Below are positions 47,664-52,644 of a stretch of 55,946 nucleotides of DNA, in pieces (position 1 is the first letter of the stretch; every line of letters starts with the position of its first letter). Under the pieces are notes generated by a model, which was not told the origin of the DNA, made no database searches, and saw only the letters and a program-made list of their open reading frames with translations. Source of the stretch: Nitrospinaceae bacterium (GTDB taxonomy: Bacteria > Nitrospinota > Nitrospinia > Nitrospinales > VA-1); the NCBI GenBank assembly GCA_023271875.1, contig JALPWY010000007.1:1-55946 (forward strand), given 5' to 3'. Position numbers and translations under genes: made by a program.

Positions 47664-48269
47664 TTATTTATCGAGGTATAGAACTTTATAGGCTGCCATG
47701 GCTTTGTAAACACCGATTTTTATGGCTCTTACGGATAAGGTTGCTCCGCTAATCGAGAGAATTTCATTTGGGTTAGAAGAGGTGTCTTTCCCATAAAACT
47801 GGCTACGAAAAGATTTGTATCTGACCTCCCACCCTTGGGGTTCCCTGTAGACCATGATCTCTACATCGCGAACCGTTCCATCTGTATTGAGAACTGTCAT
47901 GAAAGTAATGGGGAATGATTTCCCAATAATGTTATCAATTAACATGGATCCCATAGGTTTCCCATTTTTTATTCCGGTATAAAAGGTGAATCGCGTTTCA
48001 TAGATTTTATACATATAAATTTCTTCGATTGCACGAATTTCCTCTTTAGTTAGCCAGAGTCTTTCTTTTTTTATTTCGTCTGCTCCAGGAAAAGCTATTT
48101 CAAATGCCTGTTTTTTGGTAAGGTATACTTGAAGTTGAAATTTCTTTTCTTCTTCGGCGAAGGCAAAAGTAGATAAAAATACAAAGGAAACCAGACTAAA
48201 GGAAAATGTCAGGTAAAAGTTACGGGACCGGAAAGGGATAAACATATTGTTCAATAGGTTGACCATCAA
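47664..48269 (-). CDS. Secreted FMN-binding-domain protein
   Basis: A 201-residue protein with a signal peptide ending near TFAFA-EEE. The C-terminal domain carries the flavin-attachment motif SGAT in SISGATLSVRAIKIGV (about residues 174-189), where the Thr is covalently linked to FMN in RnfG and NqrC. GKPMGSMLIDNIIGKSFPIT and WEVRYKSFRSQF are typical of the FMN-binding domain. Small secreted forms act as electron carriers, in some systems delivering electrons to periplasmic reductases. It is 59 bases from the PepSY-type gene of the iron-uptake operon and is a likely redox partner in ferric reduction. Confidence 0.88.
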   Translation of the reverse strand: MMVNLLNNMFIPFRSRNFYLTFSFSLVSFVFLSTFAFAEEEKKFQLQVYLTKKQAFEIAFPGADEIKKERLWLTKEEIRAIEEIYMYKIYETRFTFYTGIKNGKPMGSMLIDNIIGKSFPITFMTVLNTDGTVRDVEIMVYREPQGWEVRYKSFRSQFYGKDTSSNPNEILSISGATLSVRAIKIGVYKAMAAYKVLYLDK

Positions 48270-48328: not shown

Positions 48329-49975
48329 TTAATTTTCTAGTTTTTTGTTTCGATTGTCCGAATGACTTGTCTTAGTAGGAAAAGGCTGATTCGATGCGAT
48401 GTCTTGTGACATTGTAGAAAAATTCTTTATTTGTTCTGCTAGAAGTTGGATTTTTGTATCAAGCATTGAGATATGTTTGTCGATTGTACTGGTGTCATCT
48501 TTTGTTTTTGGGTTTTTGTATATAGTTTTACATTTTTCAAGATGTATATTTATATGATTGACCATGTCATTGATATCTTCATTATCAAAGGATTCTGACA
48601 TATCGATTATCCGATCAATTTCTGTTTCTTCATCTAAAGTTTTATTTATAGAAAGTTTATTTTTTTTAATTTTTTTGCGATAAGAAATAATCATTAATCC
48701 AGAAATAGCTAAGCCGATCATTCCAATAGTAGCTATGTCTACCAACCAGTAAAAGTATGTTCCAAAAAATCTTCCCGTATGAATTTCGGTAACTAACTTA
48801 CCAAGATCCATTTTAAAATCTTTTTTTGGCACTGTATTGCCTGATTCTCCTAAATTGACAAAACTCCAAAGAGCTCCATTGTTTCTTGAGATAAATAATC
48901 CTGTCTCCGACCCGGCAAGAAGAAGCGAAGCCCGGTTATTGGAAGCAGTAATAGATAAAATTTTATTAATTTGACTTATTTCTAATTTGCCTTGTTTCGC
49001 TAGGTTTTTTTTGTGCGGTGTGATTTTCAACCACGTATCGCCGCTGTTATTTGAATAAAATAGTCCTTTAGTAGAAGTTAGAAAGATACCAGTGTTGTCC
49101 TTTGTGTCTATAGCCAGAGAAAAAATATTTTTTGTGTTTTTATTTTTATCTTTGATCCAATTTCGCCCTCCATTGAATGATTTGTAAAAACCATTTTTCG
49201 TCCCAACAAAAATAAACTCTGGATCTGTATTAAAGGTTATGACGCTAGATATGTTATTAGGGAGTTCGGTCCATTTTTTTTCCCACTCTCCACCATCATT
49301 GTTGCTTCTAAAAACACTATTTTTTGTGCTTATTATGAGTTGATCTGGGTGGGCAGCAGAAAATTGAACAGTTTGAATATTTTTATTTTTTAGAGTTCCA
49401 TTACCTGCAAGTTCCCAAAGATCCCCTCCTTCATGTGAGACGAATAGACCACCTTGGGTGGCAGCGTAAATAGTTTCCGCTTGGTTAGGGTCAATCAGAA
49501 GATCGTTAATAAAGACACTTGTTAAACCACTGGCTTGGTCGAACCACTCATTCCAGTTTTCACCTTGATCTTCTGATTTAAAAATGCCTTTAGGAGTGCC
49601 CGCATATACTTGCTGGGGATCTTTTGGATCTACTGCTAGCGCACGAATATCCTGACTGAATAATCCTTGTTTTGATTCTGTCCAGTTTTCACCTGAGTCA
49701 ATAGAACGAAATAAGCCATGATCTGTCCCTGCAAAAAGCACGGGTTGTTTCTCATTAGGAATATAAGTAAGAGATTGAATAGACCGATTTATTCCAGCTA
49801 TATGAAAATATTTTTCGGGAAGAAATTGGCCTCCTACCATTCGTTTGCTGAGCTCTAATGAGTCTGTATGCATCAACAGGATACCGGAGACCGACAGAAC
49901 AATCACAAAAAGAAAACAGGCCAAACCCAACCACCTGTGGAGAGTTCGGGTTGGTTTAAAATAGAAGGTGCTCAA
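48329..49975 (-). CDS. PepSY-type membrane protein with an inserted periplasmic beta-propeller and a cytosolic H-x3-H-x3-C helix
   Basis: A 548-residue protein. Residues 10-36 form the first membrane helix ([20 protein letters not shown]), as in PepSY-associated proteins that bind haem or reduce iron. Residues about 60-385 hold seven Asp-box repeats ([56 protein letters not shown]), so a seven-bladed propeller faces the periplasm. A second helix pair ([14 protein letters not shown] to GLMII, about 397-430) ends the PepSY pattern. The cytosolic tail has H474-x3-H478-x3-C482, also found in the FTR1 gene that it overlaps by four bases (49972-49975). It may reduce iron for the permease. Confidence 0.85.
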
Positions 49976-52128
49976 GGAGATTCTTGTCCTTTTTTCTTCG
50001 GCATAATCGCGAAGCCCAATCGTTCATATCCATCAATTAGTTTTTCCTCTAGAGAACGAACGTGATCCGATAATTCATGAACTTGCGTATCTATTTCCTT
50101 TAGGTGACCAGAAAGTTCTTTCAGGTCTTTATCTTTTGTATCTTTAAGAAATGTTTCACAGCGTTGCGCGTGACCGGAAATATGCTCTGCTAAATCATGA
50201 ACAAAACTAATATCATTTTGAATATGGTTGGTTTCTTCTAACAGATCTTTGGAGTCGACTTCAGGTTTGATTACGAAAGTATAAAGAACCCCGGCAACAA
50301 ATATTACTAAAAGAATAGCCTGCCCAATAAATGTTTCCCATGTAGGGTACATTCCCAACCAGGGAATCTCAGGAGCAAACTCTGCTGCCGTCAAGGAAAG
50401 GGCCTCTCCCATTTGTAGTTCATGGAGGCCTTTACCCATAAAGGTAAATGCCATGAAATAAAGTAAGACACTGGTAAATCCAAAAAACCATTTAATGGGA
50501 ACTTTAACCCCGATTTTGTTGATTAAAAAGAACATAATTGCTAGAAAGACACAACCCACTAAAAAACCAGGAACGATGCCGTTACTAACTTCTCCTGAAT
50601 ATAAATATAGAGCTTTATAGAACAAAACGGTTTCAAACCCTTCACGATAGACTGCAAGAAAGGCAACCATACCTAAGGCAAAAACGTTTCCCGTTGTTAT
50701 GGCTTGAGTCATCTTCCCAGTGATATAACTTTGCCATTTTTGGGTTTCGATTTTTGTAAGTAACCAATAACTGACCCAGAATAAGACGACCACAGCAACA
50801 AGCATGATCCAACCCTCCAGAAGTTCTTGCTTAGCCATGCTAATATTAAGAACCTCATGGATGATATAAGCGGTAAGAAAGCTCGCACCAATTCCAACAA
50901 TCACTCCTTGATAAATTATTTTAACCTTTTCTTTGTTTTTCGATTTAACAAGAAAAGCAATTAATGCAGCAACTATTAATATTGCCTCAAAGCCTTCGCG
51001 AACAATTATTGAAAAAGATTGCAAAAATAAGCCCGTGAAACCAACTTTTTGCTCGAGAATGGTTTGAGCTTCTTGCAAATCACTTTGAATATTCTGATTA
51101 ATTTTTTCTACATGGCTTAAGTCGGCACCTCTTTTGATTTCAGCACGCAAACGACCAAAAGAAGACTCAAGTCGGAGCCCTAATTCTTTATTTTTTGTTA
51201 CTAAGGTTGTCTCAATGCCTTCAAAGTTTAGATAAGCATCGAATGCCAGTTCAGCTGATTGTTCAACCTCACCCGCTTTAAAGGCTTTTATACTCTGATT
51301 TAAAACACTGATTACATCAGCGACCGCTTGTTTTATAAAACCTGAAGCGCCAGATGTGTCTACAGCTGTTGCTACAATTGGAAGCTCCAAATTTTTATTT
51401 GAAAATGTTCGAATATAGTAGGTAACGTCCCACAAGTCTTCTTCTGGAAGAATTTCTGACCAAGCCATCATTAAAGTATTAGCTATTCCTACAGAAATTA
51501 CTTGAAAGTTATCATATGCAGTACTCTGGTCATTACCTGTTATCTCAGGGTTAGAAAGAACGGCAGGTGCTGGCTCGATCTTTGAGGCAAGAGGCCCATC
51601 TCCATCTCCCGTCAAACCATGACATACAGCACAATTAGCCTTAAAGATCGTTTTACCATTCTGAATATTGATTGGTCGTGGGGGAGATTTACTTATTTCA
51701 ATCCCTAATTCCTTCAATAATTGAGAGCTGATTGCGTTAGCAGAAATTTTTATTTCACTTGGGTCATTTTTATTTTCTATACTTGCCCGAAGGTCTGTAA
51801 ACTTTGTTTTTAGCGCCTCAGCATTTTTTGAATTTGGCATATAGCCAATAATGGTTTGATATCTCCCAAAAGATTGTTTCAAAAATATTCGGCTTTCTTC
51901 ATATTCTGCGGCATTAATAACCGTTCCATTTTTAATGGCGATTTCGTATTCTTTTGGCAAAATATCAAGCATCATGACAACTTTCTTGACTTTATTGACT
52001 ACTACTTCGGGGGTTGTTTTAGCTATTACCGATGAAGGTAAGGTGGTTAGAAAAAATAAAAATAAAAGAAAAAATATAAAGGTTTGTTTGATTAAATCTA
52101 ACCTTAAGAAACTGGTTTTGGTTTTCAT
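49972..52128 (-). CDS. FTR1-family iron permease fused to cytochrome c
   Basis: A 718-residue protein. A signal (residues about 15-36) leads to a helical periplasmic part and a cytochrome c domain with C166-x2-C169-H170 ([13 protein letters not shown]). From about residue 365 there are seven membrane helices of the FTR1 family with two REGFE motifs (377-381 and 495-499) that bind iron during transport. The cytoplasmic tail (about 635-718) has H649-x3-H653-x3-C657 and a coiled coil, shared with the adjacent PepSY-propeller protein. The cytochrome probably oxidises Fe(II) at the permease mouth. The downstream gene overlaps it by four bases. A Fur box lies upstream of the BFD gene, 551 bases before this start, so a shared leftward transcript is likely. 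Confidence 0.92.
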
Positions 52129-52338: not shown

Positions 52339-52644
52339 TCATGAGCTCGGCAACAACTTTTTCCAAAAACTTCTGTTATGGTTTTTTGGTTTTGATACAG
52401 GCTGTTCAAGCACTTGCTCCAATTTTTTTTGGTGTTTATTTTGATCAATGAACAGTTGAATGAGAATATGACATGAACCACAATTCCCTCCAGCCTCACA
52501 AGCTGAAGTTACGTCTTCTACTTGGTTAATATCATTTTTTAAAATATGATATCGAATCGTATTTTCAGTAATCTGAAAGCAATTACATATAATCTCATCC
52601 TCTTCAATTTCAATGGGGGGCTCTGTTTTCATTTTTTGATCCAC
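52339..52644 (-). CDS. BFD-like [2Fe-2S] protein
   Basis: A 101-residue protein. Residues 18-62 form a BFD-type domain with C20, C22, C55 and C58 (IICNCFQITE and GGNCGSCH), the spacing of bacterioferritin-associated ferredoxin, and another Cys at 49. The Lys/Arg-rich C-terminus has no known fold. BFD helps release iron from bacterioferritin when iron is scarce. A Fur box lies 35 bases upstream of the start. The downstream FTR1 gene begins 210 bases beyond the stop in the same direction, so it may share control or have its own promoter. Confidence 0.88.
   Translation of the reverse strand: MDQKMKTEPPIEIEEDEIICNCFQITENTIRYHILKNDINQVEDVTSACEAGGNCGSCHILIQLFIDQNKHQKKLEQVLEQPVSKPKNHNRSFWKKLLPSS

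Follow-up and report, generated by a model that had tools for sequence, protein, structure and literature searches.

An FTR1-family permease and its PepSY-propeller neighbour share a His-rich helical hairpin that recurs at bacterial iron-transport loci

The Nitrospinota include marine nitrite oxidisers, and the window analysed here is a 55,946-nucleotide stretch of DNA from one member of this phylum, a Nitrospinaceae bacterium. On its minus strand, positions 49972..52128 encode a 718-aa protein of the FTR1 iron permease family, which consists of a signal peptide, a helical N-domain, a cytochrome c domain (CAVCH), a second helical domain, a seven-TM FTR1 core with two REGFE motifs and a tail predicted to be cytosolic. 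The protein gave Pfam matches to FTR1 (3.1e-27) and Cytochrom_C (6.9e-11), and scored 96.1 bits against PF03239, for which the gathering score is 25.3. Arg377, Glu378 and Glu381 as well as Arg495, Glu496 and Glu499 are invariant in its orthologues (alignment A7). An AlphaFold model calculated with 35 orthologues as input places seven TM-length helices within residues 364–618; searched with Foldseek, the model did not match a solved FTR1 and returned only cytochrome c and noise. By family match, two REGxE motifs and seven TM helices, the product is an FTR1-type permease, with iron transport as its putative function. It resembles the FTR1/EfeU/FetM permeases (PF03239; TIGR00145) in its seven-TM core and REGFE motifs but, unlike them, is fused to a cytochrome c.

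The adjoining gene (48329..49975, minus strand) encodes a 548-aa PepSY-TM protein with a β-propeller inserted between its two TM helices. As the first-pass annotation of this DNA had stated, the two genes overlap by four bases, TTGA, which supply the start codon TTG and the stop codon TGA, and the same overlap is seen in many relatives (for example loci L031, L034 and L036–L042). Pfam matches were obtained to PepSY_TM (9.5e-10), PepSY_TM_like_2 (6.4e-9) and Sortilin-Vps10 (2.1e-18), with scores of 39.2 and 36.5 bits against PF03929 and PF16357 (gathering scores 28.8 and 27, respectively), and Foldseek related the model of the protein to the propellers of GH74, YCF48 and sortilin. Residues His13, His36 and His399 are invariant in its orthologues (alignment A8). 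The pair is flanked by an exported, RnfG-like FMN-binding protein with an SGAT flavinylation-type motif (47664..48269, minus strand; FMN_bind 3.3e-9) and, upstream of FTR1, by a BFD-like [2Fe-2S] protein (52339..52644, minus strand; Fer2_BFD 1.9e-11). Among the loci read, orthologues of the FMN-binding protein adjoin the PepSY/FTR1 pair only in the genus of the window (L031, L034 and L035), where BFD-like orthologues also lie upstream of FTR1 (L031, L032 and L033). PepSY/flavin systems have been linked to iron (PMC8238504), and the invariant TM His, the FMN_bind neighbour and the iron link recall the PepSY-TM electron-transfer proteins with flavinylated FMN partners (PF03929/PF16357; PMC8238504; VciB), from which the window protein differs in its inserted propeller and in an added hairpin, predicted to be cytosolic. 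The PepSY-propeller protein is a probable electron-transfer partner of the permease, and the FMN-binding protein is another probable electron-transfer partner.

When the whole FTR1 and PepSY-propeller proteins were compared by BLASTP, the single significant stretch was found in their tails (E=2e-6, 52 residues), and the homologous portion comprises about 70 C-terminal residues. The tail alignment scores 88, a value reached by none of 5000 shuffles (maximum 72), so that the resemblance exceeds chance. The motif H-x3-H-x3-C occurs in only these two proteins among the window ORFs of at least 120 aa (16,312 aa); the first-pass annotation had drawn attention to this identical spacing and gave the residues correctly for both proteins (His474, His478 and Cys482 in the 548-aa protein, His649, His653 and Cys657 in the 718-aa protein), but the KTKDD/KDKDL resemblance that it also reported does not persist in orthologues. 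With a profile (A2) constructed solely from FTR1 tails, a six-frame scan of 77 genomes from the phylum recovered, besides the FTR1 tail itself, the tail of the neighbour (best 1.6e-12) nearly everywhere that protein exists; the other matches were limited to short PepSY proteins (family f9). Compared profile against profile, the FTR1 and PepSY tails matched with 97% probability. On these sequence comparisons, the two tails have a common ancestry.

Searches of Pfam and NCBIfam with the tails gave only coiled-coil noise below the cut-offs, those of the PDB gave weak matches to coiled coils, and the stand-alone version described below has no Pfam match; matches to UvrB, SbcC-like, SMC and chemoreceptor proteins (E 1e-4 to 1e-2) were read and discarded as coiled-coil noise. 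A known domain was rejected on these grounds, and searches of the literature on FTR1 in Nitrospina, on FetM tails and on small Feo proteins yielded no description of the module, in line with the earlier view that it was undescribed.

The shared tail, about 65 residues long, is predicted to form an antiparallel helical hairpin, with moderate to low AlphaFold confidence. In FTR1 (50014..50238, minus strand; residues 631–705) the model contains a helix, residues 597–661, that is continuous with TM7, a turn (residues 662–666) and a second helix (residues 667–708), with pLDDT of about 66–78. In the PepSY-propeller protein (48407..48589, minus strand; residues 463–523) helices 466–486 and 492–528, modeled with low confidence, follow a disordered linker (residues 440–467). 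Both hairpins are expected to be cytosolic, that of FTR1 because a signal peptide is followed by seven TM helices and that of the PepSY-propeller protein because an inside N-terminus is followed by two.

The H-x3-H-x3-C triad of FTR1 proved to be only part of a wider pattern. Helix 1 bears H-x3-E-H-x3-H-(x3-C) and helix 2 bears H-x4-D-x3-H, and nearly every one of the 46 FTR1 and 34 PepSY-propeller tails retains this arrangement. Numbered along the tail, the conserved residues are His14, Glu18, His19, His23, (Cys27), His45, Asp50 and His54, and in the window FTR1 they correspond to His644, Glu648, His649, His653 and Cys657 of helix 1 and His675, Asp680 and His684 of helix 2. Conservation was measured over 83 distinct sequences from three protein classes, of which 45 are FTR1 and 34 PepSY-propeller tails. 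All five His and Asp50 rank among the top eight columns, Glu18 is ninth, and His23 and His45 are 100% conserved. Cys27, the least general residue of the pattern, is present in 43 of the 45 FTR1 and 33 of the 34 PepSY-propeller tails and is replaced by Ser or Ala in two FTR1 proteins, by Phe in one PepSY-propeller protein, by Lys or Arg in the short PepSY proteins and by Ala in the Feo version. The expectation that both His and Cys would be conserved in orthologues thus held strongly for the His, while the Cys is, as judged from these alignments, dispensable. The window PepSY tail retains His474, His478, Cys482, His501 and Asp506 and carries Asn469, Asn473 and Gln510 in place of the family His, Glu and His, respectively, as do its closest relatives (L031 and L035), the second of which has lost the Cys too. 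These losses suggest that full binding is not required in that tail, and the His474/His478/Cys482 triad belongs to its best-kept half. In a crude ideal two-helix model, His19, His23, Cys27 and His45 occupy one side, with Cβ distances of about 9 Å (His23–His45) and 8 Å (Cys27–His45). On the other side, His14 and Glu18 are about 12 Å from Asp50 and His54, hence a metal would be shared on that side only across a dimer.

Co-occurrence of the FTR1 tail and the PepSY-propeller partner was scored on a tree of 52 FTR1 proteins, one of which was unscored. Tail and partner occur together in 37, the tail without the partner in eight, neither in six and the partner without the tail in none. The proposal that the tails co-occur only when both proteins are neighbours therefore fails, since eight of the 45 scorable tailed FTR1 proteins are without the partner and the tail is also found on other FTR1 proteins, on short PepSY proteins and in Feo operons. 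An intact PepSY-propeller gene was not found beside any of the six tail-less FTR1 proteins of the tree, nor in one further genome with neither (G040). Thus, the partner seems to need the FTR1 tail, and the tail can do without the partner. Fisher's test, with the seventh genome counted, gave p=4.8e-5, a value that ignores relatedness; the tree requires four or more changes of the tail (at least four losses), and the three to four phylogenetically independent tail/partner pairs, none in the opposite direction, are too few for significance. The tail occupies the 3' end of FTR1 and directly adjoins the partner gene, so that a single deletion could take both, and their co-loss may be one such event. 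Partner-tail remnants follow FTR1 in G020 and G062, which indicates that the partner losses there are recent; in L061 and L116 the PepSY-propeller tail remnants lie just past the FTR1 stop, for example MHRLMQNLEKLEQMD. In G002 a tailed FTR1 stands beside a decayed, tail-less partner gene (L032:605-1939), which also lacks the His equivalent to His36, starts 296 bases past FTR1 and is apparently decaying. Genus g10 contains tail-less FTR1 relatives with a duplicated or split N-terminal domain (L068:4484-6970 in G050; L069 in G037).

Within the phylum, a tail without the Cys also ends the short PepSY-TM proteins of family f9 (209–212 aa), which adjoin an FMN-binding protein; an FTR1 match was not found in the short-PepSY genomes G072, G073 and G076. 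A distant member of the class, G056 (L070), has an FTR1 with a tail that lacks the Cys. The search profile was enlarged stepwise with new members (A2, A5, A6, A10 and A11), and the first matches beyond the phylum came from profiles from which the sequences found were still absent: A5 led to G245, and A6 to G438 and G544. In G245 and G438 a tailed FTR1, with Asp at the His19 position, adjoins P19 (PF10634) and a Fer4_5 membrane protein, a FetM-P19-type context, and in G711 the gene preceding a tailed FTR1 encodes a Fur-like regulator, as judged by eye. Family f305 (G544, G636 and G637) has the hairpin, in each of its three genomes, as a stand-alone protein of 81–85 aa (L234:4980-5223; L238:3026-3283, 85 aa; L239:4980-5234), encoded after a DtxR-type regulator, feoA and feoB and preceded by GGAG in 3/3 genes. 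G721 has a similar, weaker stand-alone reading frame (1.6e-6) after feoA, feoB and a porin-like gene. This frame (L246:6977-7228) has a good AGGAGG and no in-frame ATG, GTG or TTG start; an ATA start is possible. Porin-like genes of the outer-membrane type adjoin three tail-bearing loci (L111:4530-5852, L070:7960-8955 and L246:5823-6938). Beyond the phylum, seven genomes gave a match at E≤1e-4, and in each of them the module lies in an iron-transport locus; the sole false match of the last profile scan was an SMC coiled coil (6.7e-5). Neither the short PepSY nor the Feo version of the hairpin, used as query, matched anything in plasmid sequences. From outside the phylum, 29 further reading frames of the FTR1 family were sampled. 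None matched the tail, and most end 2–60 residues past the last TM helix; the hairpin is therefore an added module, and the idea that it is a general FTR1 feature was rejected.

Since related pieces accompany other iron-uptake proteins of distant bacteria, either fused to them or encoded alongside, the hairpin is probably an unrecognised iron-handling domain. The earlier proposal of a duplicated metal-binding or pairing module stands as to duplication, conserved His and a cytosolic location by topology, and falls as to specificity to this pair. The reading we favour, with somewhat better than even confidence, is that the hairpin is a cytosolic iron-binding domain of iron importers that was copied onto the redox partner, and that it possibly docks the two proteins there. 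The hairpin, with its conserved His/Glu/Asp and often Cys set, would accompany iron-import machinery and bind iron at the inner face of the membrane, where it would take ions leaving the permease or sense cytosolic iron. In Nitrospinales a second copy, arising by duplication, would sit on the PepSY-type transmembrane electron carrier and probably position this carrier on the permease, with both hairpins packed together. A broader version, in which the family accepts or senses iron for unrelated import systems (FTR1, Feo and PepSY/FMN) and the Nitrospinales copies form a shared metal site across both proteins, is offered only tentatively. The Cys/His region at the cytosolic C-terminus of E. coli FeoB, which binds Fe(II), is a comparable tail on an iron importer, but it is a short, unrelated Cys-rich peptide rather than a helical hairpin (PMC10647171). 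Little is known of the way in which FTR1- and Feo-type importers receive, sense or gate iron at their cytosolic face, and a compact soluble domain found on unrelated importers, with an 85-residue stand-alone form in Feo operons, makes the iron-reception step directly testable; the arrangement also suggests that the permease and the transmembrane electron carrier of Nitrospinota work as one unit.

Rather than receiving cargo, the hairpin could act as an iron-gated regulator, in which cytosolic iron bound to the TM7-continuous hairpin closes the permease by feedback. The predicted helix 597–661, which extends without a break from TM7 into the hairpin, and the role of hemerythrin-type sites as iron sensors elsewhere (PMC12022348) are consistent with such gating, but the free-standing version of the Feo operons would require a separate contact with FeoB, and we consider it possible rather than probable. 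Pure docking, whereby the hairpins join permease and redox partner, or homodimerise, and the His are structural, seems to us unlikely. It would account for the duplication of the hairpin in two neighbouring proteins, for the tailed FTR1 beside each intact partner and for the flexible linker ahead of the PepSY hairpin, and it has a precedent in yeast, where interaction of Fet3 and Ftr1, likewise a permease with a redox partner, requires the cytoplasmic C-termini of both (PMC11817551). The yeast tails differ in relying on the short stretches RRGH and YGMM, with a His-rich hairpin not reported (PMC11817551). Moreover, the best-conserved residues of the hairpin are His, Asp and Glu rather than core hydrophobics, the loci with the stand-alone Feo version or the P19-type FTR1 contain no further tailed protein, and six Nitrospinales genomes carry the FTR1 tail without the partner, all of which speaks against docking as the sole role.

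The hairpin might also be half of a hemerythrin, two copies of which would combine into a bundle of four helices that holds di-iron sites of the hemerythrin type. Its five His, one Glu and one Asp equal the ligand set of hemerythrins, its HxxxE, HxxxH and HxxxxD motifs (H14xxxE18-H19xxxH23 ... H45xxxxD50 and His54) recur in the hemerythrin pattern H-HxxxE-HxxxH-HxxxxD, and a hemerythrin-like domain is borne by a metal transporter, the P1B-5 ATPase (PMC9388753). However, each chain has two helices instead of four, HxxxE and HxxxH lie on one helix and face different sides, and no hemerythrin match was found in Pfam (E≤1 for the tails, E≤0.1 for the stand-alone protein) or among PDB chains (E≤10). 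Membership of the hemerythrin family was rejected accordingly, and the half-hemerythrin arrangement is improbable. That two His-rich coiled-coil tails converged by chance is scarcely credible: both tails are amphipathic helices, their weak library matches are coiled coils and an SMC coiled coil intruded as noise, but the BLASTP and shuffle results, the profile–profile match and the specific recovery, down to 1e-12, in the 77-genome scan argue against it, as does conservation across the order and beyond the phylum, solely in iron loci.
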